NCBI GenBank assembly: GCA_003024785.1
Contig: PUQB01000333.1
Span: forward strand, 62,001 to 126,000
Direction of reading: 5' to 3'
Source of the DNA: Selaginella tamariscina
Lineage: Eukaryota; Streptophyta; Lycopodiopsida; Selaginellales; Selaginellaceae
Length of the DNA: 64,000 nucleotides
Both the position numbers and the translations under genes were made by a program. The notes below the pieces were generated by a model that searched no databases, was not told the origin of the DNA, and saw only the letters and a list, made by a program, of their open reading frames with translations. Below are positions 1,991 to 32,706 of the stretch, piece by piece. Position 1 is the first letter of the stretch. The number at the start of each line of letters is the position of its first letter.

Positions 1991-4719
1991 CTAGTTTTCA
2001 TCCTTGAATTTCGACTCCAACACTCCTAAAGCCAAGGGTGTGATTGCTACACTTCTCCTCCTCAATCAAGGCTTGGCCACAACCCCAATGGAATTCATTG
2101 TTCAATGAAGAGAGTCCTAACCAATGGCTTGGTTAAGATATTAGCCAGCTGTTGTTAGAAGAGATGTGTTCAAACCTTCAGCAAACTTGTGCTTACCAAT
2201 TCCTTGATATAGTGATAGTGTTTAACAATGTGTTTGGATTTCTAATGTTGCACCTCACTATTGCACCAATCAATTGCTCCCTTGTTGTCCACATGGAGCG
2301 AAATTGATATCGAGAATTGCCCGAAAGCTCCAAAAAATTCCTAAGACCAAAGGATCTCCCTAGAAGAAGAAGAAGCAACCAATTACTCTGCTTTGTGGAA
2401 AAAGAGCAACGTGAGCCTACTTCTTATTGGCCCAAAGAACAAGGCTTGTTCCAATTTGGAAACAAAATCCTGTTGTGGATTTGTGCTATCTTAATCATCC
2501 AATAAGCTGATGTTGCTAACAACTAGAGAAAACCATCACTTGAGCTGTATGATAATCTAAAAGCAAGTGTTTGTTTTACATATTGCATCACAGATTTTGC
2601 CATGTCCCAATGTTTCTTGCCAGGATAGCAAAAATTGGCTAAGAGCAATGATGATATAAGCCAAATCCAAATGGTTGCATACTATAGCGTACTTGAGACT
2701 CCGAATGTTGAGGTATATGTTCGGTGAGTTGGCGTTGAATCCCAGAAGTGGAACATAGCTGATTGAAACTGCGATTCACAAATTCACCACCATTATCAGT
2801 CCTCAACTTTTTGATCCGGCAACCAGTTTGGTTCTCCACCAATGCTTTCCATTCTATAAAGCAATCCAAAACTTCAGATTTAGTTTTTAAGAAATAAACC
2901 CAAGTTTTTCGACTAAGATCATCCGTAAAGGTTAGGAAATACTTAGCCTTGCTAAAAGATGGAATACGGATTGGGCCACAGACGTCACTATGGACAAGCT
3001 CCAACAGTTCATGTGCCCTACTCCCGATTGTTTTGAATGGTTGGCGATGATGCTTGCCAAGAGCACATGCCTCGCATGGAGAAAGAGTCAAATCGTTAGA
3101 TACATTCAAACCATTTACCATTGGTCTCAAACTTTCAATCCCGGAAATTGAGCAATGACCTAGTCGCTTGTGCCAAAGGTCACAACTACCTTTGCCAACT
3201 GAGGCAAGAATTAAGGAATTGGTTGACACCTTATCCGTAAGATGGTACAAATTTCCTTTCCTAGGTGCTACGGCAACCACGTTGTTAGAATACTTTCTTT
3301 GGATAATACAAGTCGTATCGTTAAAAACGACCGTATTACCCATATCAGTTATTTTAGCAACAGAAAGTAAATCTTTGCGTAAGGAAGGAGCAAACATTAC
3401 CCCAGCGAGTGTGAGATCCCCTTCAGATGTGTGAATGCTGATATCACCGATTCCATGCACGTGATGCTCACTATTGTCTCCCAGTTGAACTGCATGTTGG
3501 CCAAGACAGTCACGATACTTAACATAATGATCCTTATGCCAAGTTAGGTGAGTAGTAGCACCAGAATCTATCACAAAAGAACCTTTTACCGTTGTGTTAT
3601 TGCAAGCTTCGGTTTTGATCTCAGCAACACAAGCCTCCTCAAGTAGGCGTCCATAGTTAGCTGATGTCTTCCTAGACTTGATCTCTTCCAATTGCTTTTG
3701 AAGATGTTTCATCTTCAATCTGCATTCACTTTCATCATGGTTAGCTTTGTTACAGTAACCACAATTTTTCTTTTTCTTATCCTTCCCATTCTCCTTCAAC
3801 TTGGACGTGTTCAACTCCCTTCTGATTTTCCCTTGTTCTTTTTCTTCCTTGCAATTTGCTTAGAAGTTCCTACAAACAAGGCTTGATCAGAATTTGAGCT
3901 GCCAATTCCCACATCCTTCCGCATGATTATCTCCTCCTTAACGGCAAGTATTGCACGGCTAAGTTGAAGCTTCTCAACCTGCATCAAATTGCTTCGAAGG
4001 GAGTGAAAAGAGTTGGGTAAAGAACGAAGAAAGAAGTAATTTTGGAGGGAAGGAGGAAGCTTGTTGTCTTTGTCGGACTCCTCAATTTGCCTGTACGTGT
4101 TCTTCATGTTGTCCACGAACTGGTCAAAGTTCTCGGATTCGGACCACCGCATATTGACCATCTCTGTGTAGAGGTGTCCAATCTGCACATGAGTCTGCAA
4201 CTTGTGCTTGTCGCAGAGCTTCTTCCACAGATCTTTGCTGGTGTAGTTCTCCTCGAGATTGAGATCATCTAACACACTCTCCGTCACAGCTAATCCAATC
4301 GTTGCCGTGCCTTTATCCTCTCGCCGGCTCCAGGTGTCCAGCTTTTGGTATCCAGCATCGGCTCCTGGTTTGAGCTCGTCTCCATTGACCACGCCCCAAA
4401 CTCCCTCGCCTTTGAGGATGAGTTCCATTCGGCGTCTCCAGCTTGAGAAATTTCCAGAACCATCAAAAATGGTAATGGAACGGCCGTTGGAGAATGTGAC
4501 GGTAGCAGCATCTCCATCTTTCTGACCCTGCTCCGATACCATGACAGAATGAAAGATCTTTAATCAGAAAAGAAAAGAAACAACTGTAATGCTTATTAGT
4601 TCACGCATAGCATATATACAACTCTACGTTGAAAATATCTTGGCGACTGTTAAGCCTTGAAAGCGGCCGAAGAAGCTGCCGGAGATTGAGGCTGTCATCT
4701 CCTTGATTTCAGCTCAACA
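1990..4719 (-). mobile_element. Ty1/copia LTR retrotransposon fossil 1
   Basis: Copia-family element read on the minus strand. Its 5' LTR is 4542-4719, starting TGTTGAGC and ending in TGTCA on the minus strand. It is followed directly by a primer-binding site like TGGTATCGGAGC at 4530-4541, the initiator-Met type. The gag region spans about 3811-4540. A zinc knuckle (CGYCNKANHDESEC), protease (DSGATTH), GAG-pre-integrase and integrase core follow down to about 2640. A small RNase H tail similar to QLANILTKPL lies near 2110-2150, so most of the reverse transcriptase is lost. No convincing 3' LTR was found. The front half is well preserved and the rear half is mostly missing; it is broken and of moderate age. 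Confidence 0.85.
4542..4719 (-). repeat. 5' LTR of copia fossil 1
   Basis: 178-bp segment with TG...CA ends in minus-strand orientation, placed directly before the primer-binding site and the gag start. The outer boundary at 4719 is inferred from the TGTTGAGC start and from the change to a second copia fragment at 4720. Confidence 0.6.
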
Positions 4720-5640: not shown

Positions 5641-7201
5641 ACGCCTTGTGAAATGTGCTACATTACACTTTGTAAAGGTCATTTAAGCTTGTAACACCTT
5701 TCTTCTACAACAGAATGAGACAAAGGTAGTACCTTTTATGTCCTTTTTGTTAACATTGTACATCTTTGAAATGAGCTTGAACTTGTTTTTTCATTTCTGT
5801 CATAAGCCTTTTCCTTTCCCCTTTATGTAAATATAATGATAGGGAAGTTCTAAGTATGTGTAGTTGTGTGTAGCTGGTCCGTCTTGTTCAATTTAAACTA
5901 TGTTGTCAACATTGTTCTTATTCTTGCTGCTCTCTCTATCACTGCCCTTTCTTCACTTTGTTGATAGTAGACCATGTGGCTGTTTGGTAGGTGGATTAGG
6001 AGTCAATAGATGGAGTGGGAGTTCTTGTGCATGTTGTAGCCTAATGGGTGCCACATTACTTTTAGAAGGAATATGTATCGAGCAACAAGGTGGGCATCAA
6101 TTTTGTTGTAGTTGTATGTTGGTGTATTGCCTCCATCTAGTTGTTGGACACTTATCTTGATGCATGCACGGTCATGGCCCTTGTAAATGTAGTCGTAAAT
6201 ATATTTGATGCCCCCAACACTAAAACATTACTTAATGTTGATATGTGTAACATACTTGGACGTGAGATACCAATTCCAAGATAAAACTAAGTTATTGTTA
6301 ATAGTGATGCCTCTTTATTGGTACTCTCTTTGATACTCTAATTAGCTATTAGAGTTCACAATAACGGTAGTCTTGAAGTGTTTTAGGAAGCCCTAGCTAC
6401 ATACTTATTATATAATAAGGATGGCACACAACATTTTGGAGTATACCTTTAAGTTGATGTTGTTATTTACTTGAAGGTAATGTGTTTCACATGAATGATC
6501 ATAAATCTCTTGACGATTTAATGCAATTGTGGAAATTCTTTAATGTTCATGATGTTGTTAATGTCATTGTTATTCTTAATTTTATTTTCTTGCTCAAGGA
6601 TGAGGAACATGTAACAATGTGGCAAACCTTGCTTTTAAAACTCAATTGTGTACATACATGCCTTAACCTTTTCAAAGATGTAATTATCAGTGATGTCCTT
6701 AAGATAAATTTTAGTTTGATGTGAAAGACATGTGCTACTACTATGTGACATGATTCCATGTTGTCTTGCATTTCTAACTAACTCAAGCTGCATCTAAATG
6801 TGATGAAGAGATCTGCCTTGCCCAATTTTCTTATTTCTTATGAGTGCCATGGAATTTTGATAATTTTCTTGTATTGCTCTTGGGCTAAATAGATATGAGG
6901 ATGGGAGTATGATCAACTTTTATATTGTTAACCTTTGTTGTTCCACTTCATGGTTTGATGTAGTCATTGAGACCTTAATAAATTTCAGCATGCAATTATG
7001 TTTGGTTATGCCAGAGAAAGTTAAGGTTGTTGACTTTCACATGTGCGCACACATCAACAGTGTTAGTTTTTCACTATTGAATAAAGGGTTGAACTCAAAC
7101 TTGACCCTTGGATATGAACCTCGATTCTTTTGTGTGACAAACATATATGAAGAATACTTAAGTGAGGTAATTATCTCTTGTCTTTTTTCACTTATATGCA
7201 C
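5641..7201. other. Unassigned AT-rich DNA
   Basis: No recognisable gene. Short open frames (for example around 5900-6160 and 6909-7208) have low complexity, no domain and no supporting context. The right end abuts the left inverted repeat of the 14.6-kb element. Confidence 0.5.
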
Positions 7202-7222
7202 GTTGTAACTAAAGTGGGCATG
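7202..7222 (+). repeat. Left terminal inverted repeat of the 14.6-kb element
   Basis: 21-bp arm, GTTGTAACTAAAGTGGGCAT plus G. It pairs with 21745-21765 with a single mismatch (G versus A at position 13). The TIR identity of such short arms 14.5 kb apart is supported by the gene layout between them. Confidence 0.7.
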
Positions 7223-7483
7223 ATACGTGAAAATGGGAATATAAAATAAATTACTAATTAATACTTAAGTTTTAATTATTAATTAATCATTTAATTAATA
7301 TGTAATTAAGCCTTAAATATTAATTAATTAATTAATTAATCCTTCAATAACCTTACTTAGTAAGGAATATTCCTAAAATATCTTAGAATATTCATATTAT
7401 TCTAAAAATAGTTTACAATAATGAAGAAATACTATCAAACATAATTACAAATGAAATCATTTTCTTATCAACATGTTAATTTT
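7223..7483. other. Left subterminal AT-rich zone
   Basis: About 260 bp between the left inverted repeat and the phosphatase-like gene. It is dominated by TTAATTAA runs and contains GGAATATTCC and AGAATATTC motifs. Similar GAATATTC motifs occur just inside the right inverted repeat at 21620-21685. Confidence 0.5.
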
Positions 7484-8565
7484 TTATAAATACTTTCTTT
7501 CTATCATACAAAGAAATCTTTTCATTTTGTCTAAATCATCACTCTCCGGATTAATCAAATCATTTTGGTCAATATCTTGATGTTGTTGCCACCACTTAAC
7601 ACTCTCACGAATGCAATTGGGAGTTGCCATCCTTGTTAATACATAAGATGTGATAAGAGAAGGTCTGCATAAAGGCTCATCTAAAAACTGACGTTCCTTA
7701 AGAATAATATTATAAAGCGCCCGGTTGCTATCCTTCATTTTATAAAATTCAATATCACGAGAAAGAAAAGCTTCAGGAAATGTATGATACGGTGGATACT
7801 GCTCACAAAAATTTTCGAGATTCTTCTTTCTGAGGCACGTATCCAAGTAGTTCACTAGCTCATCCATGATATCGGTATCAGAATATGGATCGAAAGTGAT
7901 TGGATGAATACAAGCAATGTTTTGGTTGAGCATAGCCTTCTGAGGAGAGTCGTCTACTACTAACATCTGTGTTCTTCATTATCCTTAAGCGACTGATCTC
8001 CCCATGAGTCCCAATTATTCTTTCATTCTTGAAGAAGTATGGCTTGCTTTCCTTTCTTATATTGTGAAATTCGAGAGGTTTATGACACATTCGCTGGTCA
8101 AAAATCCAATCTTTACGAATCACCTCTTCTGCAACACTACAATGTTTCTTAAGTAAATTCAACAGCGGTGTTAAGTTATGAATCTGCATGCATGACCAAA
8201 TCCCCACAAGCGCACCCATCTCCTTAAGCTTTTGAAAGAGACGATCCAACCCTGGACGAAAAATAATATCATATCGAAATTTACCATGACAAGGAATGAA
8301 ATCTCCTTGTTTGATTTCTTTTTCTATCCTCGGGCCTTTGTCGATGAAGCAGAACACCATTGACATCCAACAACACAATATGGCCATGAGTAACATGAGA
8401 TAGCGTTGCCTCTTGAATACTTTGCAAATCACTTGTTTGCTCCCTTTCACATTTATCCGTTGCCACTATCTCGTTGCCTATCCCTTCATCATTTAATTGT
8501 ACATCATCCTTACAAGATTCAGATATTGCATGCGCTGAAGAAATTGATTTCGGAACTGAAGCCAA
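7484..8565 (-). pseudogene. FCP1/NIF-type HAD phosphatase-like gene, frame-broken
   Basis: Encodes a protein of the FCP1-homology (NIF) branch of the HAD superfamily, whose members dephosphorylate proteins such as the RNA polymerase II C-terminal domain. HAD motif I is present as LLDVNGVLL, a DxNGxL form often seen in plant members (about 8350-8385). RPGLDRLF and GIWSC correspond to the motif II region (8200-8250), and LVVDDSPQKA is motif IV (7935-7965). A basic C-terminal tail follows to the stop near 7484. The open frame shifts near 8340 and again near 7970, each time inside a conserved motif, so about two one-base changes separate it from an intact protein of roughly 350 residues. These may be consensus errors like those in nearby host genes. 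Low-scoring coding-like sequence continues upstream to about 8750, so the start at 8565 is uncertain. It lies 260 bp inside the left inverted repeat and on the same strand as the ParB-like gene, so it is probably element cargo or a captured host gene. Confidence 0.7.
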
Positions 8566-8917
8566 TAAAATGATGATGAAGTGGCCCCCATGGTAACGAT
8601 GTTTTGAGCTGCATTATTATCCATTTCCTGCATGAACTCTGTCATTCTGACATGTGGCACAAGAAATTGTCGCCAAACCCCTCTCTTACCTCATGGCAAT
8701 GCTGAAAATCCATGTTCTCAATTATTTCATTACATCTGCAAAATGATAATTAGCTGACCTTAAAATTATCAAGGTATATTATTTACCTTGTTAATGTGTG
8801 ACCCATGTTTGAACTAAAAGCTTCATTAATCCTTGAGAATTTATTTTCTGTACAAATATAAAAGAAATATACAAAAATGCCTTATGTTACACTCATTTAC
8901 AACTATTCATCACTCTA
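8566..8917 (-). other. Spacer between phosphatase-like and ParB-like genes
   Basis: Minus-strand sequence at about 8570-8700 keeps an open frame that runs into the phosphatase-like gene and may be an extra exon. From 8750 to 8917 the DNA is AT-rich with no recognised feature. Confidence 0.35.
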
Positions 8918-11900
8918 TCAATTCATTATCAATTCTTCTTCGCTATTACCTTCTGAGTGAGGCGAAGAAGGTCTAAGCCGCTTGTGAGATGGTTCAAGAT
9001 CTTCTGCATCTTCTATTGATGTTTCCATGGGTCCTGGAGTGTGCGAATGTTCTGTACTCCTCGAGATAACTTCCGGTCTAATATCTGATTGAAGTTCGTT
9101 CTCAGACTCCGAGATTGAACCAGATTCACCTTCAGAGCTATCGCACTTATCTGGAGGGAACTTTCTCAAATACGCCTTTATGGATCGTTGGGGTACTCAG
9201 TTGAGACCCAATCTATCCACTTGTTCAGGTCCTCAACCATGGTCTTATCCTTTTCAACGGCAAACACACATGTATGCCGAAGGTAACACTCCTTCAAGAC
9301 GGACCCCCTAGTGCAGTAGTCAAAAACCCACGCATCACTGTGAGGACCCCTGATCAAGTTGACGATGCTCCGTGCCGCTTGACTTGTAATGTTTGGATAA
9401 CGTACATTGCCGAATACGTCACTCATACCTATCGGTGTATCGGATGGAGGTTCAGGGCCGTTGGAGTGCAAACAGATGCCTGGCCAGTCATTTGGAAGCT
9501 TGAAATTGTTTGGCGCATTCCTAACAACCAAGTGAACAACGTATCAATGCACTTGGGATTAGCATCGTTCATATAAAATCCTGTCCAACGATGTCTATTC
9601 TTCTTGGCGAAGGCGAAGGCAAAAGTATCGGTGACATGAGCAAGAATCAAGAAATAAATACCTGAAAAAGTAGGTATCAGTGAAGAGCGCAAGCATGAAT
9701 TCAATAATAAATACCTTCTATGTATATGCTTGCACGGCTAAGTTTCTCCACCAGATCCTCTAGTGCCCTATCTGTCGAAAGATTTTTTGACACCCGCCGA
9801 TCCATCACGAACAATTGAAACGGTTTCCTACAAGCAGTGATGTTACCCCATAAAGTCTCCGAATCTAACAACAAACATCTGTAGGGCTTGTCGTGATTCG
9901 TAGCATCCTCCTTTATAAGGTTCAATTCGGTTCTCCGCTGCTGAAGGACTGCCATAAGAGAAGGCGTCATCCCAATGTTCTCCTTTTTGGCGTTGGCGTG
10001 CAATAGATTCTTGCCCAGATCTTCCGATTGGTTCACCCATTCGACAAGCATATCATCGTTCGTCACATGCAAATATTTGCTGACCTCTTCATATGTTGAA
10101 GTCGAGGTCCAACCCAGTTTGTGGCAGTGTATTCCCAACCACTCCTTGAAATGCCTGACCGTCTTCAACTCCATTGCCTTGAGATGAAAAGGAGAGGTTG
10201 GGCTGCTGTTATTAATTTGTAGTTTGCCATCGATCACCAAATCAGCCAAGACTTCCATCTCCTCCATCGTTGTTCCATTTAAAGGCTTCAACCATGTGAG
10301 CTTGAAATCGTTGTCTACATCCTTTGTAGATTGAACAGACTTAGCCTTCGGCGTCTTACTGGGTTTCTTTGCAGACTTTTCTGAGGGCTCCCCTTCACTT
10401 GTCTGCTTCTTCTTCAGTGTTCCTTTTGAAAAGGATTCCATAATCCCCAACCATTTGGCAAAGATCCTATCTTCGGGGCAAGAAATCAACATCATCAGAA
10501 AGGATGTTTCCTTCCCGCCCACCTGGGCAAAATCAACTGCTGCAATTTCTTCAACTCTCTGAGGAAAAAGACAGATTAATATACCGGCGAGATAAATCCC
10601 GCCCAAACAATTTGCTTACCCGGTATTCCGCAGATTGTGTATTCCCTGCGGTAGCTCTTTGTGGTCGCTGAAGAGATTCCCACACGGCTCGCGTGTGTTT
10701 AAACTTCTCCCATATTTTGCTGTTGTAGTGGTTGGTGTCGGCAGCGTCCCATTCCGCCGATAACTTATGGTACTGCTCGATTGTGAGATTCGGCTTAGCT
10801 AAAAACGCCGATCTTTTTGTCAGCTTCTCACGGGTATGCTCGGAAAGTTTTGTTGCCATCGTTTTGTTGTGTTCATCGAGAAGTCGTTGGGCTGCCGTTA
10901 TTGTGTGCTGGCCACTAATGATGTAGTACTTGATAGATTTTTATTCTCCGTCTGAATCTTCATGAGTTGTTCTGGTGTTGTGATCCAGACTTTGTCAGCC
11001 CTTCCTTCTTTCATAGTATGGACACAAAACAGCATTATGTGGAACGGTATAAGAATTGTCGTCCTTCATCTTCTCCATGAGCTCAGCTACACGTTCCTGG
11101 TTGAGTGGCCTGTAATTGAAGTTTGGGTTGACGCTGCAATATTTAACCCTACAAGGATAAATCTTATCATCCAACATCATTTCCTTGTGACTTATTGCAG
11201 CATGAGATGCCACAGGTGCAGCTGACAAAACGATTGATGATTTTCTTTTGCGATCCGAATCAACATGTGTGATCCCCGACTGCAGCTGTTCTAGTGTTCT
11301 CGGCTCCTTCCAGCTCCCAAGCTTCCTAAGCAAATTGAACGTGATCTGTAGAGAACCTGAGACCGAGCCACCCTCTCAATCTCCCTTATGATGTCGCTGT
11401 GTTCTTCTTCAATGTGAAGAGGGAAGATTGCTCCACTTGCTGATTTTCTGTATTGTGAAGCAATATCTCCTGACAATACACCTACTCGATGAGTCTGAAG
11501 ATCTTCGAAGTAGACATCCAGATGGATCCCCTCCATAGATGGGCTTTCGTTGAGTTGAAGAAGAACTCCAAGGTCAACATCATTAGTGAACACGTGAACG
11601 TCATTATCCACAAGTCGACAAAACCACCCGAAATTAATGTTGTAACTGACGACCTCTGGATCCGAGAACGTGACATTGGATGGAACAAGGCATATGTGTC
11701 GAGCATCGTCCAATCTGGGTTCGCAGCCTGCTTTCGGGTGCTTGACTAGCGAATCTACTTTCCATTGTTTTGCTTGTCCATGAGATGTGACAGAGGTTAA
11801 TTTGACAGCAGCCATGGTTGCTCCAATGCGCTTCCCATTTATCTTAAAATATGGCCAAGTTGATTCCAGAATCCCCCTGCCCATCTCTTCTCCTGCTCTT

Positions 11901-12050
11901 GTCTTTAATGTCACCTCAATTCCACATCTGAATACAAAAATGATTAGTTCAAGTATCCGAGTATAACAGATTTTTATTTTAATTCTTACCCAGAATTTGA
12001 CGACGACTCCATACTAATGACTCGATCTCCTTGTTTGATCAAATCGTCCT
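8918..12050 (-). CDS. ParB-like domain plus DNA-methyltransferase-like protein
   Basis: Large minus-strand gene with at least three short GT-AG introns (11928-11989, 10559-10619, 9662-9714). The N-terminal part (11350-12050) is unrecognised. A ParB/sulfiredoxin-fold domain follows at about 10870-11170: it has YRPLNQERVAELMEKM, then WITTPEQL, then YYIISGQHTITAAQRL, which resembles the ParB signature ending in a GxHR/GQH loop and an Ala-Ala helix. A lysine-rich linker lies at 10330-10440. The C-terminal third resembles a beta-class amino-methyltransferase. It has PFQLFVMD at the motif IV position (9800-9830), then a tail of YPNITSQAARSIVNLI and AWVFDYCTRGSVLKECYL (9260-9380) with a following VEKD, matching the order of motif IV before motif I. 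DPPY is replaced by DRRV, so activity is doubtful. An acidic Ser/Glu tail ends at 8918. The frame changes at about four places (near 11370, 10930, 9530 and 9190), possibly consensus errors. ParB-methyltransferase fusions are known in phages and bacterial mobile elements; a spliced plant version is unusual. Confidence 0.65.
10586..10603. repeat. Palindrome copy inside an intron of the ParB-like gene
   Basis: GGCGAGATAAATCCCGCC, a two-mismatch version of the array palindrome, lies in the 61-bp intron at 10559-10619. The same variant occurs in array A near 13630. It ties the arrays to this gene. Confidence 0.75.
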
Positions 12051-12154
12051 TCTGCAAAATAATACACTATAAATAAATTATATAAAAACGCACACACACT
12101 TGTATAAACCCGAATATACAAAAATAATACACAGAGAGAAGTAGACGTAATTAA

Positions 12155-12237
12155 CTGTCCGAAGCTCACATTTGTGTTAGTGCAAAAGAAAGATAACATT
12201 TCGTTTTAGAACCACCACAAATGTGAGCTCTGGACAG
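12155..12237. repeat. 22-bp inverted repeat upstream of the ParB-like gene
   Basis: Arms at 12155-12176 and 12216-12237 share CTGTCC and GAGCTCACATTTGTG-type sequence with two mismatches, separated by 39 bases. It lies about 100 bp upstream of the first recognised exon of the minus-strand gene and could be a regulatory foldback or binding site. Confidence 0.7.
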
Positions 12238-12352
12238 TTTTACATAGATTCCTAGCTTTTACTCGAAATATTATGATAAGATGATAAAAGTAAATAAAAT
12301 GAGATATGCAACTTATATATACTAATACACATATATATTCACATGGAAGGTG

Positions 12353-13753
12353 CGGCGGGATTAATCTCGCCACCCCTTCAATGCCTCCTGAAAGAGTGGG
12401 CGGGATTAATCTCGCCACCTTTCTGGAGGCCTTGAACGGGAGTGCGGAATTAATCTTGCCACCCTTCTCGGTCTCAGAGAGAACTGGGCAGGATTTATTT
12501 CTCACACCCCTTCAGTGACTCCAGAAAGGGGCGGGATTAATCTCGCCCACCATGTAAGGGATGGTTAAATGAATTTCCCCACCCTTCCCATTCTCTCCAT
12601 TGGTATGTTGAAAACCTTCTACGTCTCAGACAGAAACGTTTGGGATTGGTCCGACTCACCAATGGAGAAAAAAGGAAGGGGGCGGGATTCATTCCTCCAA
12701 CAGGCATTGAAGACTCGGCGGGATTAATCCCGCCGCCCAGGGCCTTCACTCGGTCCCTATGCGGCGGGATTAATCCCGCCGGACGCCAATTCCCTGCGCG
12801 GAATCGGGCGGGATTAATCCCGCCGCCTAGGCACTTCAGGCAGGCCAATGGCGGCGGGATAAATCCCGCCCGATTCCGCAGGGCATTGCGTCGCGGCGGA
12901 TTAATCCCGCCTCCCAGGCCCTTCACTCGGGCCTTAGTCGGCGGGATTAATCCCGCCGAACGCCAATGCCCTGTGCGAAATCTTGCGGGATTAATCCCGC
13001 CGCCTAGGCCCTTCAGGCAGGCCAATGGCGGCGGGATAAATCCCGCCCGATTCCGCGCAGGGCATGCGTACGCGGCGGGATTAATCCCGCCCACCATGTA
13101 AGGGATGGTGAAATTAATCCCACCACCCTTCTCAGTTCCCTCCATTGGTATTTTGTAAACCTTCTCCGTCTCAGACAGAGTTAGTCGGGATTGATTCAAC
13201 ATACCAATGGAGGAAAAAAGAAGGTCGGGATTAATCCCGCCACCGGGTAATGAAGGTTCGGAGAGACTAATCCCGCCGCCCTCTCGTAAATCATGCGCTC
13301 ACACATATATATTGGCTGCGGCATTTTGAACAGGGATGGGTGGGGGGGGATTAATCCGCCGCCCTCCGCAAGGCATGAGCGTGGGGCGGATTAATCCCGC
13401 CGTTCATGTCCTGCGTGAATTCCCTGGGCGGCGGGATTAATCCCGCCGCCTTACGCGCAGGACATGTCATGCAGGCTCTTCGGTTAGCCTTCCGTGCAGG
13501 ATCTTTCATGCAGGCTCTTCGGTTAGCCTCATGAGCGGCGGGATTAATCCCGCCCATCCCCTGTAAATGCCCTGCGCGGAATCCGCGGGATTAATCCCGC
13601 CCATTAGGGCCTTCACACAGGCCATTGCCGGCGAGATAAATCCCGCCGCATTCCGCGGCATGTGAGCGGCGGATTAATCCGCCGCCATGACCTGAGCGGC
13701 GGGATTAATCCCGCCGCGAGGCCATAAACCTATACGGCGGGATTAATCCCGCC
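12353..13753. repeat. Palindrome array A (GGCGGGATTAATCCCGCC)
   Basis: About 27 copies of the 18-bp perfect palindrome GGCGGGATTAATCCCGCC or close variants, spaced roughly 40-46 bp in the core (12717-13100). Common variants have GATAAATC or lose one G or C. The spacers are also GC-rich and partly self-complementary, such as GCCAATGCCCTG and CGGAATCGGGC. A segment of about 150 bp containing CTCCATTGGTA and its inverse is directly repeated (about 12541-12690 and 13090-13240). Copies at the left edge are more decayed. The array is upstream of the ParB-like gene. Long open frames here on both strands, with GGINPA or AGLIPP repeats, are by-products of the palindrome. Confidence 0.9.
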
Positions 13754-13759
13754 GCTCGA

Positions 13760-13835
13760 GGGGCTTAGCGTGTGTGCGAGAGATAAAATTAATAAATAAA
13801 AAAATTATACAGATAAAAACACACACATATATATG

Positions 13836-13894
<59 letters not shown>

Positions 13895-14528
13895 ATGTAT
13901 AGTGTATGTATAGTGTACGTGTGTGTGCAAGAGATAGATAAATAAATAAAATTATACAGTACTGGTACACATAATATATGTGTGTACATAGGTATATATA
14001 TGTGTGTATATGTATATCGTGTGTATGCGTGTGAGCGAAACAAATAAAATCATACAGAAAACAAACACACAACACACACATATATATACACAGGAGTGTG
14101 CGTGTGTGTGCGAAAGATAAAACTAAAAATAAATAAAATTATACAGATAAACACACATATATATGTGTGTATATAGATATATAATCCATAGAGAAAGAGA
14201 GAGAGTCTGTGAATATATAAGCATATATATAAACTAGTGTTGTATGTATGTATATATGTATATAGGTATATATATATGTGTATATGTATATTGTGTGTAT
14301 GCGTGTGTGAGCGAAACAAATAAAATCATACAGATAAACAACACACACACACACACATATACATACACAGGAGTGTGCGTGTGTGTGCGAGAGATAAAAC
14401 TAATAAATAAATAAAATTATACAGATAAACACACACATATATATATGTGTGTATATAGATATATAACCATATGAATGTATAAGCATATATATAAACTAGT
14501 GTTGTATACTATTTGTTAATATGCATTG

Positions 14529-14609
<81 letters not shown>

Positions 14610-14920
14610 GTAAAGCAGTGTGCGTGTGTGGGAGAGATAGATCAATAAAAAAAAATTTACAGATATTGGTACACATAATATATGTATGTATATATGTATA
14701 TAGGTATATATATATATGTGTATATGTATATCGTGTGTATTGCGTGTGTGAGCGAAAACAAATATACAATCATACAGAGATAACAATAAACACCCACACA
14801 CACACACACACACACGGAGTGTGCGTGTGTGTGCGAGAGATAAAACTAATAAAAAATTTATACGCACACTCCATATCATACACACACACACACACACACA
14901 GATCTCACCTGTGTGCACAG
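13760..14920. repeat. Higher-order TG/TA-rich tandem repeats
   Basis: A unit containing GTGTGTGCGAGAGATAAAAC, then TAATAAATAAATAAAATTATACAG, then CACACATATATATGTGTG recurs about eight times in two alternating forms. The second form has GTGAGCGAAACAAATAAAATC. The spacing gives a larger period of about 280-300 bp (for example starts near 14101, 14380 and 14828). It includes a TA tract and a TG tract at 14530-14608. Non-coding. Confidence 0.7.
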
Positions 14921-14929
14921 CCGCCGCCT

Positions 14930-15830
14930 CTTGAAACCCTAAGATATACCTAAACCCTAAGGAATTAATATATATATTAACCTAATAGAATATTCCTTCT
15001 GAGAATATACTTAAACCTAAAAAGAATAAATATAGATTCGCCCTAAACGAATATTCTTTCATTATATTATTAGCGCGTGCGTGTCCGTGGGTGTATCACA
15101 TACACCCAAAAATAAATCATGCAGGGATTTAACATGGTGTATGAGAGTGTTAAAGTTTCATGTGTAATACATACATACACATTGCATATATTAATACACT
15201 AATATATACACACACGTGTATACACACAGACATACATACATATTACATGGTTTAGGGTTTAGGGTTTAGGGTTTTGGATTTAGGATGGATCATGCATGGT
15301 GTGTATATATGAGAAGAGAGAGGTGTAAAAATTATTTTTGTACACATTGCATATATTTAGTACACATATATACTTACACATATTATACACAGATATACAT
15401 ACATAGTATATGAGAGAAGAGAGACAGTACAATATGATCATGCATGGTGTGTATAATACACACAGACATACATACATATTAGTACATAATATTTGAGAGA
15501 CCGAGTAATATTATAGATCATGCATGGTGTGTATGTTTGAGAGAAGAGAGACAGTACATATTAACATGGATCATGCATGGTGTGTATGTAAGAGAGACAG
15601 AAAGTACACATATATACATACGAGTACACATATATACATGCACACGTGTATACACACAGACATACATACATATTACATGAGTAATTCATTGTGTTACATA
15701 TTAGGGTTTTAGGGTTTAGGGTTTAGGATGGATCATGCATGGTGTGAAGAGAGAGTGTTGAAAAATTTTTGTACACACATGTATACACAGGGTTTAGGGT
15801 TTAGTTTAGGGTTTGCTCCCAACAAGCTTA
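14930..15830. repeat. Telomere-like repeats interleaved with a GATCATGCATGGTGTG unit
   Basis: Short TTTAGGG tracts occur at about 15248-15275, 15702-15727 and 15787-15820, and the opposite orientation (CCCTAAA) appears at 14934-14962. Between them the unit GATCATGCATGGTGTGTAT occurs five times (near 15289, 15438, 15516, 15569, 15729), each followed by a GAGAGAAGAGAGACAGTAC-type stretch and CACACAGACATACATACATA. This looks like an amplified, scrambled minisatellite seeded by interstitial telomere repeats. No gene. Confidence 0.75.
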
Positions 15831-16059
15831 ATATAAATATTAACCATGTAATTCAATGTTACATACACACAAATTGGTACATATATCATACATGCGTAAC
15901 AATGTTTTCAATAAAGAAGCAACATATTTCTTCAGTTTGGTTTAGGGTTGTGCATGTTGTGCATATGTGTTTTTGTAAGTTCTTGTAATGCGTGTGTAAA
16001 TTTATGATTGTGTTTATATATGTTGCAAAACAAACATCGATATTAAGAAAATAATATTA

Positions 16060-16740
16060 ATAAACACATATGAACATATTTTAAATTATACATAAAAATA
16101 TGATTTTATCTAATATAAGCCATATATAGTTTTATAATAATAATTTAATTTAATATTGAAAAGTTTAACATTGAAATATTCTTGAAATAATAAGAAATAA
16201 TTGAGAAATCCCATTAATATATACAAATGTAAATTAAGTACTCAAATAATTAACTAAATTAATTACATAATCAATGTTTAAATATTGGAATATTCTTGGA
16301 TAATAAGAAATAATAAAGAATATCCCATTAATATAAAGAAGATTAATTACTCAAGTAATTAAGGAAATGATTAATTATATATTATTAAAACTATATTGAC
16401 TATATATTAGATAAAATGATGTATTATTATGTATAATTTAAAATATGTTATAGTGTTATTAATTTAATATTGATAATAAGGTTTAACACATGAATATTCT
16501 TGAAATAATAACAAATTAATTGAGAAAATCCCATTAATATATACAAATGTAAATAATTACTGCAATAATTAAGAACAAGACTAATTTAATTATGATAATC
16601 AGGTTTAATATTAGAATATTCTTCAATATATAAATATTAAAGAATATCCCATTGATACTAGGAAATGAAAACTAAATACTCGAGTAATTAAGAAAATAAT
16701 AATAATAAAGACTATGAATATATTTTAAATGATACATAAT
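16060..16740. repeat. Diverged AT-rich tandem repeats with GAATATTCTT
   Basis: At least four degenerate copies (near 16170, 16285, 16490 and 16610) of a unit containing GAATATTCTTG, AATAATAAGAAATAA, ATCCCATTAATATA and TACTCAAATAATTAA. The GAATATTC core is shared with the element's two subterminal zones. Non-coding. Confidence 0.65.
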
Positions 16741-17358
16741 AATATCAATTTATTTATTGTATAAGTATATTTATATATATATATATTATAAATATACTTG
16801 AATACTAAGAATGTAGAATATAGTCTAAAATTTCGTAATATTAAACAGCTTGAATCACTTGAATAACATTAAATGCATTTTAAAATACTCATTGGAACTG
16901 AGAGTATATATGTCAGAGTGTCGGATATTTGTGTCACTCATCTTAAATTTTATTTTCTGTTTTTTTAAAAATTTGAATTTCTGACATATGTATTGTCGGT
17001 CTGACATGTAAATTTGAAAATGCATTTAATTTCCCACTCAAATTCAGATCTGGTTCTTTCTCTGGCAAGGGTTTCTTCATTTCTGTATTTTTCACTCTTT
17101 AGATCTTCTTTTTTCTTCATAGTGATCATCTCAGGAGCGAGATTAAATTGGGTGCTATTCTTTATAGGAAAGCACGGCGCCTTCAGTGCTGTTTACAAGT
17201 AAGTATTATAAACAAATTTAAAAATACTTATAAAGATTCACTCTCTTACATTCTCTCTTAAAATTACAATTTAGGGGTTTAGGAATGCATTAGGATTATA
17301 ATATATTCCGTTAGGATTTATCCCGTTTAAATATCCTTTTAACTTAATATTCTAGGTT
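16741..17358 (+). other. Candidate promoter and first exon region of the transposase-like gene
   Basis: A short plus-strand open frame at 17014-17198 (starting MKMHLISHS) ends at a good splice donor, ACAAGTAAGTAT. The next good acceptor, TATGTGCAG at 18171-18179, begins the recognisable transposase-like coding region. If the two are joined, array B lies inside the intron. The exon has no domain and could be only a leader. The assignment rests on splice signals alone. Confidence 0.35.
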
Positions 17359-18034
17359 AACCGGGCGCGGGTTAATCCGGCCATTTCTTTTTCGCCTCTT
17401 CGAAGAGGTGGCGGGATTAATCCCGCCACCATCTCTCGGGCAATGCTTCTCCGCCACTGAAAAGAGTGGCGGGATTATCCCGATAACCTTTTAACTGATG
17501 AAGAGTTACCAGAATTTATTAGAAAGAGTTGTCGGCGGATTAATCCGCCAACCATTTTAGGAGGCAGGGAAGGGGTGGCGGGATTAATCTCGCCACCACA
17601 TCCCTGTTTTAAGGATTTGGGGACAGGATTTATCCCGAGATCTCTTTGAAATCATAGTTTTGGAGAGAGTTATGTGCGGGTTTAATCCCGCCACCCATTC
17701 CCGTCGTAAGAATTGTGGGCGGGATTAATCCCGCCTTGGACTCCTTCCGACAAGGAAGAGCCGGCGGGATTAATCCCGCCGCCTTCCTCCTCGGGGGGAG
17801 TCCCGGCGGGATTAATCCCGCCGACTCTCTCCGCGAGGAGAGAGTCGGCGGGATTAATCCCGCGGACTCCCCCGAAGGAAGAGGCGGCGGGATTAATCCC
17901 GGCTCTTCCTTGTCGGAGGGAGTCCAAGGCGGGATTAATCCGCCGACTCTCTCCGAAGGGGTTGAGTCGGCGGCGGGATTAATCCCGCCGACCGTTCCTC
18001 GTCGGAGGGATTGTGGGCGGGATTAATCCCGCCC
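17359..18034. repeat. Palindrome array B (GGCGGGATTAATCCCGCC)
   Basis: About 15 copies of the same 18-bp palindrome as array A, spaced about 43-45 bp in the core. Copies are decayed at the left edge and near-perfect from 17717 to 18034. The spacers are themselves hairpins, for example GACTCTCTCC-GCGA-GGAGAGAGTC at 17822-17845, so neighbouring units fold into extended stems. The spacers differ from those of array A. It lies directly upstream of the transposase-like coding region. Confidence 0.9.
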
Positions 18035-18185
18035 ATCAGTTGTATTAATCAAACATAGATATTATCTCTAAACATAATTATGTATTATTGCATATGCATA
18101 TTATTAAGTAACCGTAATTCAGATTTCTTAGAAAATTGCATAAACAGATATCATAAATAATACAATTATTTATGTGCAGGACAAT

Positions 18186-21100
18186 ATGTTTAATACTGGA
18201 GATAAAGTATGTCTTTTTCGGAACAACGAGATAGTTGGCACTGGAACTGTGGAAGTTCGAGATAATAATGCATCATGTCACAATATTGCCCAAGGATCTT
18301 GTGTGACGTATGGGTGAACACCATTTACAAGCATGTTGAGTTCTGGGAATGGAATTTGAGGAGGGTTCTCCTGTATTGTGGAATTTGGATGAAGTCAAGG
18401 CTGACACAGAATATGCAGAGTCACAAAAAATAGTAGCACGAGTTTACCAGATGATGGCTTGCCTGCTGTGATGGATGAGGTGATTCTCTTTCTTCGTGAG
18501 ATTGAAGTCGGAAGAGGCATCATCACAGCTATAAATCCAATGGAAGCAGTGTCAGAAGAGAAACTAGGGTCCGACTTCGTGGGTGTAGTTGTGACAGAGG
18601 TTTCACCTAATGGCACATTGTATCCTGGATCCTCGTGAGGTGGCGAACATCTGAATTAAGACGGCAAGATGGTTCAACATATTCTGGGTTGGATTTCAAT
18701 AATAACAACCGGAAGAACAACTCATATTTGAAGAGGTTCCTTGCATTGGTCCTATTGTAAGAAAAAGCGATTCATGGTTGTAGATCTTCCCCTGCAAGTT
18801 TCAGCAAGAGGGTAAAGATGGATCCTACATCTTCCGAAAGTGTTACGAAATTTCCACGATTGACTGTTGCAAGAAGAAGTGTTGTCAGATGGCAGACCGG
18901 AATGAAATTACCCAATGTAGACATGTCTTTCGTATGCTCACCAAAAGCAAAGGCATGAGTTTTATGTAATGTTGCACTAACTGGGTGTATTGATGAAGGC
19001 CTCGGACACAGGTTATAAGTACATCCATGGTATTTATAAGGTGGCCATCTGCTTCAAAGCTTGGTACAGTATATACGGGATCCCAAAGACCACGTTCTAA
19101 CCGTCGGAGGATGAGTGGCTAGATGGAGCGAACCTCAGTTATGGGAAACTCGTTGGTCAAACCCGCTCTCACATCATGGCAGCCATAGAGATACTCAAGG
19201 CTTTTGTGGAAGCAAATGCAGACAGGATGCCTCACAAATGCCGAACCACAAATGCAGGGGTCAGGGAAAATCTCAAGGTTTTACCTTCAATCTACACTCA
19301 ATTGAAACTGTGTGAACATGTGAACAAGTGCCTCAGTTTGATGGGGCTCCAAGCAATCTGCACTGGTACCTTCAACAACATATGGAATACTCATTTTAAG
19401 GATGTGGAGATTGCAAACTCTAGCTTTTCTAAGTGTGACACTTGTACATCATTGAAGGCTGCAGAGGCTTGTGCAAAAACCTTGGTGGAGATCACTACAT
19501 TCAAAAGATGGAGGCCACATGATTGCACAACAAAACTTGCGGTCTCAGTACTATGCACACCGCATGCTTTCTGTCACGCCCATCAGAGTATGTGCTTGAT
19601 CCATGACAGATGGATCATTCAAAGACCAGCATTCCAAAGCTCTTTGCAACACCAAAGTGCCTTGGAAATGTCATGAAACTTCCGATTTCATTGACAGGTG
19701 TGCTAACACATGGACACGGTTGTGAGTCATATGGACACTTTTCACTTCCACATTGTCTCGCGAACTCCATTTACTATTGGGTCGTTAGCCATGTGTTTCA
19801 GAAACCTTGAAGCCCACTCACAGACAAGTCCTATCAGTGATCTCAAAGTGAAGAAACAACACCTTAACCTTTACATAATGCTCTCATGAACACATCTGCA
19901 CTTGAGGCTACTTGGGAATATGAGAGGCATTGTCAGCAACCTGCACAAAAAACAGATGGCCCTGTTGAGAGTTCAGGTTCAGTGGAGGATCTAGCTCAAA
20001 TAGTGACATGTGTCCTCAACATCAAATAAGCTTCCTCGTCATTTTTTTTACAGATGGATAATTGTGCAGGCGAGAACAAAAATAGGTAAATCATTTTACT
20101 TAAGGGTTTCTCAAGCTCATACTTACTTTTATTTTCTAGATATGTGCTAGCATACTTGTCAATGCTTGTTGCCAAAGGTGTGTTTGAAACAATCACGCTC
20201 AGTTTCCTTATGGTTGGTCACACTCATGAAGATATTGATGCGTTCTTCCAGCAAGGTCTCCAACTCTACAAAAAGGACAAGTGCACTTACCTTACCGCAT
20301 ATGATGAATCTTTTTGAAAATTGCATCTCCAAAAAAAGTTGTGCTTTGCTTGTGACTGAGGTGCCAGACTTCAAAAAATTTCTCAAGGAGTATATAAAAG
20401 AAGGGAGTGATTCTTTAGTTGGTCACCTTGTGCCGCTACAATTCTTTTTCTCCATACGAGATGGTATACCTATTATGCAGTACAAGTTACGGCCATCAGA
20501 GCAGGAGTGGTTACCGAAAGAGGGCTTAATGCTCTTCAAAAGTGGAGAGGATGGAAAGCCACTTCTCCCAGAAGGACAACCAGACCCTATTCCATTGAGT
20601 GCCCAGCTCAAGGAACAAGAGGTTATTATTGATGGCATCAAAAAATATGTGGCATGGGTTCAAAAATCGATGCCAAAGAATTCTGATAAGGCAACTGGTT
20701 ACTCAGAACTATATAAGCATGTGGTCAACTATTGGGAGACTGTTGTTCGAGAGTTGGAAGGGCCTACTGTCACAAGTACAGAATTGCAACACCCTTTCTG
20801 GCCTAAAACAAGGTGGCGAGAGGAGATTGAAATGACATCACTGAGCATAGACGACATAGAAGCCAGTAGTGATGTGGAAGTGCAAACCCCACACTTTGTT
20901 GGACAAAGGAACCAAAAACCTAAAGCATACTTTGATTGCTGCAGGATCTTCAAAAACTAATGATGGTTCTCATTACTCCAGATGCGTCATATAATCAGCC
21001 TATTTGGATGGGTCAAATTATCGACACACCTGAAGTAATCACAAAAAATAGTATTGTTAAGGTTGCATGGTTCAAACCACAAAAAAGGCGACACGAGAAG

Positions 21101-21268
21101 GAGAGCGAAAGATATAATGGATGCCTAGAGAAAACATGGTCTCCCAATCAAAAAGACCCAGCATGTTTTATAAATGTTAAATCCATTCGATATGGGTGGA
21201 TGTCAAGAAGCGTTGATAAAGTCACGATTAACAAAACTGCAAGGGAATGTATGTTTTCTGAAGCTTAA
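18186..21268 (+). pseudogene. DUF7869-type transposase-like protein, degraded
   Basis: Plus-strand gene matching in layout the large eukaryotic DUF7869 proteins, which have an RNase H-like core and behave as transposase-like repeats. It starts after a TATGTGCAG acceptor with FNTGDKVCLFRNNEIVGTG. A cysteine-rich segment (CQMADRNEITQCRHVF) lies near 18890-18950 and SKCDTCTSLKAAEAC near 19430-19475. A first catalytic-type motif reading MDHSKTSIP is at 19610-19640, and VGHTHEDIDAFFQQ, the hallmark of the family, is at 20212-20255. A conserved C-terminal block with SIVKVAWFKPQKRRHEKE lies at 21050-21100, and the stop is at 21266-21268. The reading frame is interrupted by several stops and shifts between 18300 and 20150 and again near 20960, so this copy is unlikely to be functional. 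An intron is likely near 20030-20140. The gene ends about 480 bp inside the right inverted repeat, where a transposase would be expected. Confidence 0.7.
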
Positions 21269-21744
21269 AGCAATTACAAAATTATAAAATATCATATATT
21301 TAATATTCATAATTATTATAAACTCTTTAATAATAGTACCAAATTGTATACTTAACTATATAAATTTAAAAAATGATATGGAAGATTGACTATATTATTA
21401 TAGGATTTTATATATATATTACTACTACAAATTTTTAATTAATAATGTTATATTTAAATATTAATATTTTAATAACAACATCAATATTTATATAATGTAC
21501 CTCTTATGCTCTTCCTTAATTGTTATATTAGGCAATATATTATATAATTTAATACATTCTACTTTTATAATGTTATTAATTTTTGTTCAATGAATGCTAT
21601 AATTTATTAAAGGGTAGAATACAAAATAGAATATTCTAAAGAATATTCTTTTTCAAACATATATTCTAAAGAATATTCCTTTAATATTAGAAAATGCTAA
21701 TTAAATAGCTAAAATTGCTAATTATTAGGAAATGGGACTATAGC

Positions 21745-21765
21745 CATGCCCATTTTAGTTACAAC
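21745..21765 (-). repeat. Right terminal inverted repeat of the 14.6-kb element
   Basis: 21-bp arm that reads GTTGTAACTAAAATGGGCAT plus G on the minus strand, matching the left arm at 20 of 21 positions. The subterminal zone just inside (21269-21744) has no gene and carries GAATATTC motifs like the left end. Confidence 0.7.
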
Positions 21766-22619
21766 TTGCAATTATATTATTGCATAGTGAAGAAATGTTG
21801 CTTCATTCTTAATGTTCATCCTCGATCAGATGTGATAATACAACATATATGTGATAAGATCAATAAATGAGTTCATTATCTCAATGTTCCTTAGCTCATC
21901 ACCTCTCTAATGTATATAAAATATCATGATTGAATAGTGGTTTTCCATTTGGATTCACAAATATAATTAAAACCTCATCTCTTCATAGCCAAATTATACC
22001 TTTGCAAGTCTAAGCTAAGACAACTAATATTGAAGTACATCCTTATATTTATTTATTAGGTTGCTTGTTCAACCCTTCAAAGTTTGAGTAAAAAGACTAT
22101 ATGTTTTAAAATAAATTGTTAAGTTGTCCTAGTAGTACAAGATTACAATTATTATTTTGAGCATTTTACAACTCTTTCCTTAAGTATACTTCAAATTTAG
22201 AATGTAAAGTTGTGTTTACCTACATTACATGTATTTACATTTAAATTTACTACGCATTATGCTTTACTTAGGTGTTCATTGGCATTTGGATGCGTAAGTC
22301 TTGTTCTATGTAGACTTGGTTATGGATTTTGAAGCAATATGGACTTGAAGTGTTGAAATAATTTATGTTAGCACCAAATGATGTAAACATCAATGTATTA
22401 TGTATGTTTTGATATTTTTATTAAGTCTTTATTCTTCACACAGACTCTAATTAATAAATGATATAAAAGGATTGGAGAGGGTCTAACTCGACCTTGTCAT
22501 TGTAGCAACATTGTTTTGTTATGTCATCCTTAAACACCAATGGATGTATTCTTTGTTAAGTGGTCCACATTAGTGAGTTACAACTTCTTTTTGAATGACA
22601 CCTCTTGTTGCCTTATACG
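21766..22619. other. AT-rich intergenic DNA
   Basis: No gene or clear repeat is recognised between the right inverted repeat and the tandem repeat that starts near 22620. Confidence 0.5.
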
Positions 22620-24485: not shown

Positions 24486-27461
24486 ATGGGAGCGAGGAAG
24501 AATGGGGGAGGCTTGTGCGCGGGACATTGTGTGCGCTACACGGTGATTGCAGCTTTTACATTGATCGCAATGTATGCAGTTGTGAAGAATCTGTCGTGGG
24601 CGGCTTCTTACGGAGCAGCAGATTCAAGGATTTCTGCATCTAGATTCTCCACTATTCCGCTCCTGTATGATCCTTCTCAGCTTCCAGATGTCCGTAAGGT
24701 TAGCTTCTATGCCTGCATTTTCTTATTAATTAACTCATATTACACACATTGACACACACACGCTATATATATAATAGATTTACCACTACACACGATCTTG
24801 ATGCATTCATTTACGTGCAATGTGTGTGTAGTTGTCGGACTTCTATATATCCATATATATAAAATAGAGCACAAAGATATATAGGTCTTGAGATCGTTGA
24901 AACTGGAAACGATCGTTACGCAGATGCATACAAGTATACGTATATATAGGATTTGTTGTAAGCAATTCAAACAACGAAAGCATTATTGAACACTGTAGAA
25001 CTATCCATGACCATCATTTGCAATCTGTATCATTGTCCACTTAACCTTTCTCTCTCTCTCACAGACACACAGTAAATGCTATGCGTGTCCGTGAATGCTA
25101 TGCGTGTCCGTGAATGCTATTAATGGGATCAAAGTATAATATCCATACATATTTTCTGTGTTGTAAGCACATACATATGTTCCACGGAAACATTTTTAAA
25201 CATAACACATAGACATAGATACACGTATGTTGTTTTCAAATCAATAACAGCACACTCATGTCATAATTATGTACCCATACAAATTATGGATGCCTCTCTG
25301 TCTCTCGTGTGTGTGTGTGTGTTGACACTACTTATAATTGTAACATGTTTTTACTTGTTATACTTGCAAGATGTGCAGTTGGAGGAGGAAGTGCCAGAGA
25401 TAGAATGGGAAGAAGTCACAGAATGCCCAGTTAAACGTCTCGATGGTGCTGCTGTACAAATCAAGAATCTTCTTTATGTGTTTGCTGGATATGCCACCAT
25501 TGACGAGGTAATCAAGTGTGCGTGTATGTGTTTGTGTTTGTGTGTGTGTGACAATATGTTAGAATTCATATATGATCGTTAATATGTGATCATGATCGTA
25601 GATATTGCCTGTCTAATAGTCGACTGTAACTGTTCTACCATATATCTGTATAATATGCTCTATAGTACTATGGATATTATGCTTAAGCATACTCTATATA
25701 TGCATATATGTCACGCACATTGTTTTTAGGTGCATTCCCATGTGGATATATTGGACCTTGAAAACAACACATGGATAGACAGATTTGATATGCCAAAGGA
25801 AATGGCACATTCGCATCTGGGTATGGTTACGGACGGACGTTACGTATATATTGTCACTGGACAGTACGGTCCACAATGTCGTGGACCGACAAATAAGAAT
25901 TTCGTATTGGATACTAAAACTAAGAAATGGTCCCCTCTTCCTCCTCTTCCCGTGCCCCGGTAAGCGTGTGTGTGTGTATGTGTATTTGCTATTTATACTA
26001 TAAAATTATGCTCAGATCGTATTCTCTCTCTCTCGACCAAGCGTGTGGCATAATTACATTATATCTTCACAGTAATTTAACTAATAAACTTAATTAATAT
26101 AGATATGCACCTGCTACGCAGTTATGGAAAGGAAGGCTGCATGTAATGGGTGGGAGCAAAGAAGATCGATGGGAGCCTGGCTTGGAGCACTGGAGCCTTG
26201 CTGTGCAGGATGGTAAAGCACTAGAATCCGAATGGCGAACTGAAATCCCTATCCCACGCGGTGGACCACACAGGTACTCTATATACATTTATCTATGTAT
26301 GTACGTATGTATATTCAATGTGTATATGCATGTGTGTTTGGAGAGAGATGAATACGTATACATACACTGTAGATTAATGTTCTAGCGTATGTGATTTTTA
26401 ATAACACTATTTTAAAATTACGTGCATTTATATATAAATATACAGGGCCTGTATTGTTATGGATGGTCGACTTTATGTAATAGGAGGCCAAGAGGGGGAT
26501 TTCAAAGCTAAGCCTGGTTCTCCAATCTTTAAGTGCAGTAGACAAAAAGAGGTAAAGTTTTATTTGTTTACACGATGGGTGCATGTGCGTGTGTGTGTAG
26601 AGAGCATAGTTAAGTATATAACATACATGATATGTTCTGTGTGTATAATTCTAATAAGCACGAACACGCACGCACGCACACTTACACATGTTGAATTCGG
26701 ATACAGGTGGTACATACGGACTTTTACATGCTGGAGGAAGATGGGAAGTCTTGGAAGATGATGCCACCGTTACCAAAGCCTAATTCTCACATAGAGTTTG
26801 CATGGGTTATTGTCAATGGCTCCATTGTTATTGTTGGTGGTACCACTGAGAAGAACCCCGTCACTAAGAAGATGGTCCTTCTAGGTGACGTTCTGCAGTT
26901 CAGCTTCCAAAAAATGGTAATGTCTGTTACGTGTGTGCGGGCGTCTGTGTATGAGCATATCATAGTGCGTTTACATTCAAGGGGGTATATATACACCATA
27001 GACAAATTTGTGTATGCGCTCTCTCTCTCTTACACACACACATGTTGCTCGCTTCTTTATAATAACTGACAGATAGGTGTGCATGTGTGGGTGTGTGTGC
27101 GAGAGAGAGAGACAGATACAGAGAGAAATCTCATCGCATAATCATATGCATCGTTTCTATGATATAGATATATAGAGACGTGAGAACATGCATATATGCT
27201 ACTCTCTCTCTCTCTTGCAGAGACACACACACACAGTGTAAAACGTGCATATGTGTATAATTTCTTTAATTATATTTATTGATGTTTCAGAGGTGGAAGA
27301 TAATCGGGAAAATGCCTTACAGAGTGAAGACAACACTGGCGGCTTATTGGAAAGGGTGGCTGTATTTCACAGCGGGCCAAAGAGACAAAGGGATTGATGA
27401 CCCTTCTCCTAAGAAGATTATGGGCAAAACTTGGAGAACCAAATTAAAGCTTTTACTTTAA
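24486..27461 (+). CDS. Membrane-anchored kelch-repeat protein
   Basis: Seven exons (24486-24693, 25371-25507, 25730-25959, 26103-26273, 26446-26551, 26707-26916, 27291-27461) with consistent GT-AG borders give an intact 410-residue protein. Residues of about 15-40 form one hydrophobic segment (YTVIAAFTLIAMYAVV) after a short basic N-terminus, so it is probably a type II membrane or Golgi-type protein. The rest forms a kelch beta-propeller with repeated blades: LLYVFAGYATID, YVYIVTGQYG, LHVMGGSKEDRW, LYVIGGQEGDF, IVIVGGTTEKNP and LYFTAGQRDK. It resembles the plant galactose oxidase/kelch superfamily proteins of the Arabidopsis At3g27220 type, for which I know no firm biochemical role. Unlike its neighbours it shows no frame break. 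It is convergent with the VDAC gene; the stop codons are 261 bp apart. Confidence 0.9.

Positions 27462-32660: not shown

Positions 32661-32706
<46 letters not shown>

Follow-up and report, generated by a model that had tools for sequence, protein, structure and literature searches.

Sola is a transposon superfamily for which PMC10741241 describes a DDD transposase, 4-bp target-site duplications, terminal inverted repeats (TIRs) of 11-1124 bp, and sizes from 2 to >15 kb. The same source and a table in PMC9033089 report its occurrence in the moss Physcomitrella and list other Sola traits, while PMC3627910 describes the Sola2 group as making AT-rich 4-bp duplications and as able to carry foreign or captured genes such as Fanzor1. 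The closest described relative in plan is Sola1-1_Ec32 of Ectocarpus, a 21.5-kb Sola-1 element with a 1104-amino-acid ParB-like/DNA-methyltransferase gene on the strand opposite its transposase (PMC12477816). Here, we describe an element in a 64,000-nucleotide stretch of Selaginella tamariscina DNA (assembly GCA_003024785.1, contig PUQB01000333.1, positions 62,001 to 126,000; hereafter, the window), which is very likely a giant DNA transposon of the Sola type that moves by cut-and-paste and belongs to a young and very abundant family. It carries a DUF7869 transposase gene, a gene resembling ParB and methyltransferases, a NIF/FCP-type phosphatase-like gene, and two arrays of one 18-bp palindrome.

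The initial annotation had proposed, from the letters of the window alone, that two 21-bp inverted arms enclose a single element whose three genes read outward from a repetitive centre, with two palindrome arrays between them. The arms were as claimed (7202-7222 and 21745-21765, identity 20/21): a search allowing ≤3 mismatches matched these two places in the window and none in 100 shuffles, and the genes and arrays were also seen as proposed. With the arrays excluded and the dinucleotide-entropy threshold set to 3.2, six window positions had 20/21 inverted pairs, the element's arms among them, and three of the others were one shifted pair; Markov controls (n = 25) gave a mean of 0.04 such pairs and a largest count of 1. 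The arm pair was lost at a threshold of 3.4 and is therefore not the most complex inverted pair in the window.

We searched the whole assembly (300.7 Mb in 1,391 contigs) for further copies. The 21-bp arm, in either variant, occurred exactly 2,926 times (1,482 + 1,444), and the reversed control did not occur. The left 301 bp matched at 100% identity in all 40 places scored, out of 876 first-look candidates, and the right 306 bp at ≥99% in all 40 places scored, out of 936. If each copy has two exact ends, the family can be estimated at ~1,460 copies, roughly 21 Mb or 7% of the assembly, a figure that is arithmetic on the arm count and element lengths in a genome where lone and inexact ends exist. 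In each of the 40 places listed, an AT-rich subterminal stretch (window 7278-7340, positions 77-139 of the left-end query) also matched its reverse complement at 82%; it is a small inverted repeat within the left end.

Ten copies were taken from the left-end list, each as two adjacent stretches. The cargo and transposase regions aligned to the window in all ten, and in nine of them both ends were visible, 14,569-15,325 bp apart and enclosing the same genes and arrays. Among the first 100 listed of the 2,926 arm sites, there were 28 facing neighbour pairs, from which we set aside four of the same arm type. The remaining 24 were mostly spaced like full-length copies (17 at 13.5-15.5 kb; three at 10.2, 11.8, and 18.1 kb; four at >20 kb). 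None was closer than 5 kb, so that the arms in this sample do not simply flank short unrelated DNA, the outcome that would have spoken against the initial annotation.

Comparison of the copies extended the arms outward to 27 nucleotides, with termini ATGCA[C/A]GTTGTAAC, and corrected the limits of the element from 7202-21765 to 7196-21771. The two TIRs in the window (7196-7222, plus strand; 21745-21771, minus strand) are identical at 24 of 27 positions, and the outermost base of the right one is unlike most copies seen. The termini of the window copy and of copies C464, C459, C462, C213, and C125 deviate from the common terminus by a base or an indel. The window copy is flanked by an exact TTAT duplication (7192-7195 and 21772-21775), read from the flanks as for the fetched copies, and 4-bp duplications lie at the equal offset elsewhere: eight of the nine fetched two-ended copies had exact ones (ATTT, AAAG, ATAT, ACAC, TTAT, ACCA, CTTC, and ATGA). 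For nine further copies, we inspected a 1,061-base right-hand stretch; a tenth was left out because this stretch lay beyond its contig. The right end was visible in four, with an exact duplication in three (ATAG, ATAC, and AAAG) and one slipped by 1 nucleotide in the fourth, and it was not found within the stretch in the other five. Thus, 12 of the 14 two-ended copies examined had exact 4-bp duplications. EnSpm/CACTA transposons have CACTA-like ends and 3-bp duplications, and neither was found here, where the ends read ATGCA and the duplications are of 4 bp.

One copy is nested inside another copy of the family. When its flanks were joined, minus one duplication, the resulting sequence aligned across the junction to the window and to nine other copies; the best of these alignments spanned 159 columns and contained 0 mismatches and 3 gap positions. 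This uninterrupted match is an empty site, and the family inserts into itself. Three of the ten fetched copies (L016-L017, L018-L019, and L028-L029) had more family sequence in their flanks, one of them being clearly nested. L018-L019 is a rearranged copy, its right end duplicated and inverted without a matching target duplication. The copies with the same ends and genes, the matching duplications, and the empty site that the initial annotation had suggested looking for in the genome were thus all found, and the single-element reading stands.

Mean substitutions among nine copies (C468 and C458 being excluded) were 0.35% over the left 4.9 kb and 0.77% over the right 3.7 kb; individual pairs differed by as much as 2.5%. 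The family is probably young and recently mobile as well as very abundant. Gap openings exceeded substitutions in most comparisons with the window copy, and for this reason some of the frame breaks in the window copy may be assembly errors.

The transposase gene (18186-21268, plus strand, with a predicted intron at 20086-20140) has a broken frame in the window. Its read-through pieces matched the Pfam family PF25273 (DUF7869) with E = 6.7e-36, and the open frames of another copy did so with E = 9.1e-47. One of the ten fetched copies had the gene open, as 660 and 392 codons flanking the predicted intron. There were 70 DUF7869 relatives at E ≤0.001 among the 7,996 candidates scored, the best of which (P0001) shared 55% identity across 45% of the query; named relatives include proteins of bivalves and of the liverwort Riccia. 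Models of DUF7869 relatives have an RNase H-like fold, and this modelling strongly supports assigning the DUF7869 protein as a putative RNase H-fold DDD transposase.

At the other end of the element, the phosphatase-like gene (7484-8691, minus strand, ~400 amino acids) is also broken in the window, where its pieces matched PF03031 with E = 6.8e-05 and 0.011. The copy with the open transposase frames also has this frame open for 403 codons, which passed the PF03031 cut-off (E = 2e-11; 44.3 bits against 21.8) and bore out the phosphatase-like label of the initial annotation. NIF/FCP phosphatases usually have a DxDx(T/V) active-site motif; in all 11 copies the corresponding residues read LLDVNGVL, with Asn in place of the second Asp. 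We infer that this gene is cargo.

The ParB/methyltransferase-like gene (8918-12012, minus strand) lies between the phosphatase-like gene and the centre and would encode roughly 970 amino acids in four coding exons, which we placed by eye at ~12012-11990, 11927-10620, 10558-9715, and 9661-8918. When ≤2 errors were allowed, its splice-like signals were present in all 11 copies, bar two signals missing from one copy, an agreement that speaks for consistency and not for function, as the copies are near-identical. The frame is broken in the window, and the central exon is open there and in five of the ten fetched copies.

Toward the centre of the element, the 18-bp palindrome GGCGGGATTAATCCCGCC had 34 matches in the window at ≤3 mismatches, all within the element, and none in shuffles. 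At this threshold, array 1 (12354-13753) holds 22 units upstream of the ParB-like gene, array 2 (17410-18033) holds 11, and a lone unit (10586-10603) sits in predicted intron 2 of the ParB-like gene. An AT-rich, microsatellite-rich centre (13760-17030) separates the arrays. Array 2 is inside a predicted intron of the transposase 5′ untranslated region (17199-18179, plus strand), whose donor-like signal (≤1 error) and acceptor-like signal (no error) were found in all 11 near-identical copies. The ParB-like gene has an acceptor-like site, for which a matching donor was not found, and array 1 lies directly upstream of it. Both arrays are probably intronic. Between units of array 1 (window 12763-13091), there are also long inverted repeats with 118-nucleotide arms that are 79% complementary.

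The exact core occurred 27,128 times genome-wide, its reversed control 0 times. This corresponds to ~18.5 cores per estimated copy, a value within the range counted in single copies (15-30), so that the number of exact cores in the genome, if not each individual site, can be explained by the element. A single exact 18-bp palindrome in one viral contig (L001, positions 146-163) was judged to be chance.

We propose, from the co-occurrence of the ParB-like gene and the palindromes in one element, that the ParB-like protein may bind the arrays. That they are instead selfish repeats of a satellite-like kind, or are bound by a host factor, for example an E2F-type S-phase regulator with GGCGGGA half-sites, is a strong contender that falls only a little short of even. 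Unit number varies over ten elements as it does in satellites (19-31 in array 1 and 9-20 in array 2), and ParB-palindrome binding is itself a proposal. Set against this, the 18-bp core is kept in both arrays while the spacers differ between them, a contrast biased toward the core because units were picked by it (≤3 mismatches), and the lone intron unit is kept in all ten elements scanned (nine fetched and the window), though these are near-identical overall. Bacterial ParB/parS systems likewise pair a ParB protein with clustered short palindromes, which here lie within one element beside a ParB-like motif; the differences are that no ParA was seen here, that the gene is eukaryotic and intron-bearing, and that binding is only proposed.

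Several results count against our reading of the element and of its accessory gene. The ParB-like gene was open as a whole in none of the ten fetched copies, its second exon never being fully open. ParB and methyltransferase families were not hit in Pfam, PHROGs, or NCBIfam, homologue searches with the accessory protein found none, and a DPPY/NPPY-type motif was not seen in any of 11 copies, where FQLFVMDRRV stands at the expected place by eye. On the side of the transposase, none of the Foldseek matches was significant (the best, to an unrelated enzyme, had E = 0.039; the best for the full-length model had E = 0.28), and the Sola assignment rests on the duplications, the fold, the size, and the published parallel. 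Finally, two of the 14 two-ended copies lacked a clean duplication (the slipped and the rearranged one), and the element boundary was fixed only after copies had been inspected.

The accessory protein might be unrelated to ParB or methyltransferases and its motifs coincidental, which we consider unlikely, though far from negligible. The ParB profile (PF02195) was absent from matches up to E = 5 for the window and E = 10 for another copy. The C-terminal piece had 0 methyltransferase families in the three profile collections, and the ParB-like part had no ParB or methyltransferase match among PDB sequences. Only weak unrelated or unnamed matches appeared, such as phrog_4933 (function not known; E = 0.067 over the ParB motif region). 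DNA N4/N6 methyltransferases have a catalytic DPPY/NPPY-type motif. Against coincidence, we take YRPLNQERVAELM and YYIISGQHTITAAQ to resemble ParB boxes and DAWVFDYCTRGSVLK to resemble methyltransferase motif I, all by eye. A gene so described also sits opposite the transposase in Sola1-1_Ec32 (PMC12477816). Of the initial annotation's description of this gene, then, the large spliced-looking gene was found in the copies, while the ParB and methyltransferase names were left without profile support.

It is rather improbable that the element belongs to a distinct DUF7869 superfamily that shares 4-bp duplications with Sola by chance. DUF7869 is its own Pfam family, the named relatives come from bivalves and a liverwort, the term is absent from the literature searched, and the comparison with Sola was made by published description. 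The 4-bp duplications, the RNase H-fold DDD core, the 27-nucleotide TIRs, and the size of 14.6-15.3 kb nevertheless fall within the Sola descriptions, and Sola2 also makes 4-bp duplications, described as AT-rich (PMC10741241; PMC3627910); those found here are not always AT-rich (for example, CTTC, ACAC, and AAAG). Sola1-1_Ec32, one published Sola-1 element, is likewise giant and has a large ParB/methyltransferase-like accessory gene on the strand opposite the transposase (PMC12477816).

There is next to no chance that the stretch is simply a transposon fragment and two loci of host genes that happen to lie between two related repeats. This reading has nothing in its favour apart from the broken frames of the window copy, and the other copies in the genome refute it: all ten fetched copies contain the same regions, with duplications and an empty site.

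The Sola parallel also bears on novelty. The initial annotation had suggested a new class of transposon and did not know its pairing of transposase and ParB-methyltransferase from any described element; a new class is not supported, as this overall plan has already been reported in a brown alga, Ectocarpus. Compared with the 21.5 kb of Sola1-1_Ec32, the Selaginella element measures ~15 kb, has a phosphatase-like gene and two 18-bp palindrome arrays, and showed no DPPY-type motif; the excerpted text of PMC12477816 does not mention palindromes for Sola1-1_Ec32. The overall plan is thus known, and what is new here is the NIF-type phosphatase gene and the two arrays of one 18-bp palindrome.

Elsewhere in the window, frames recognized by eye included those of a Copia-type retroelement just left of the element (2639-4563, minus strand) and of a Gypsy-type retroelement (52267-56331, minus strand), exons of a Kelch-like host gene with a membrane-anchor-like N-terminus (24487-27069), and exons similar to membrane proton pyrophosphatase (32666-33782).

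There is good support for cut-and-paste movement of this family by its DDD transposase. The transposase would bind the arms, excise the element, and join it to target cuts staggered by 4 nucleotides. As the frames of the window copy are broken, this copy, if mobile now, probably uses the transposase of other copies. With less certainty, the ParB-like protein may bind the 18-bp palindromes, which lie within or next to introns of the two large genes, and through this binding the element might recognise or regulate its own copies. In its fullest form, which we hold to be speculative and improbable, the protein would be inactive as a methyltransferase and would load on the palindromes like ParB on parS, so that 27,128 sites in an estimated at least 1,000 copies would be recognised and the copies coupled, silenced, or protected. 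If true, this would be a eukaryotic self-recognition system run by one element-encoded protein. ParB-methyltransferase proteins encoded by transposons have been proposed to bind and modify their own element, with no target site named in the excerpted text (PMC12477816). In the family described here, which is young and has an estimated at least 1,000 copies, the conserved 18-bp palindrome that forms arrays next to the transposase and ParB-like genes is a concrete candidate for such a site and thereby opens the self-binding suggestion to a binding assay.
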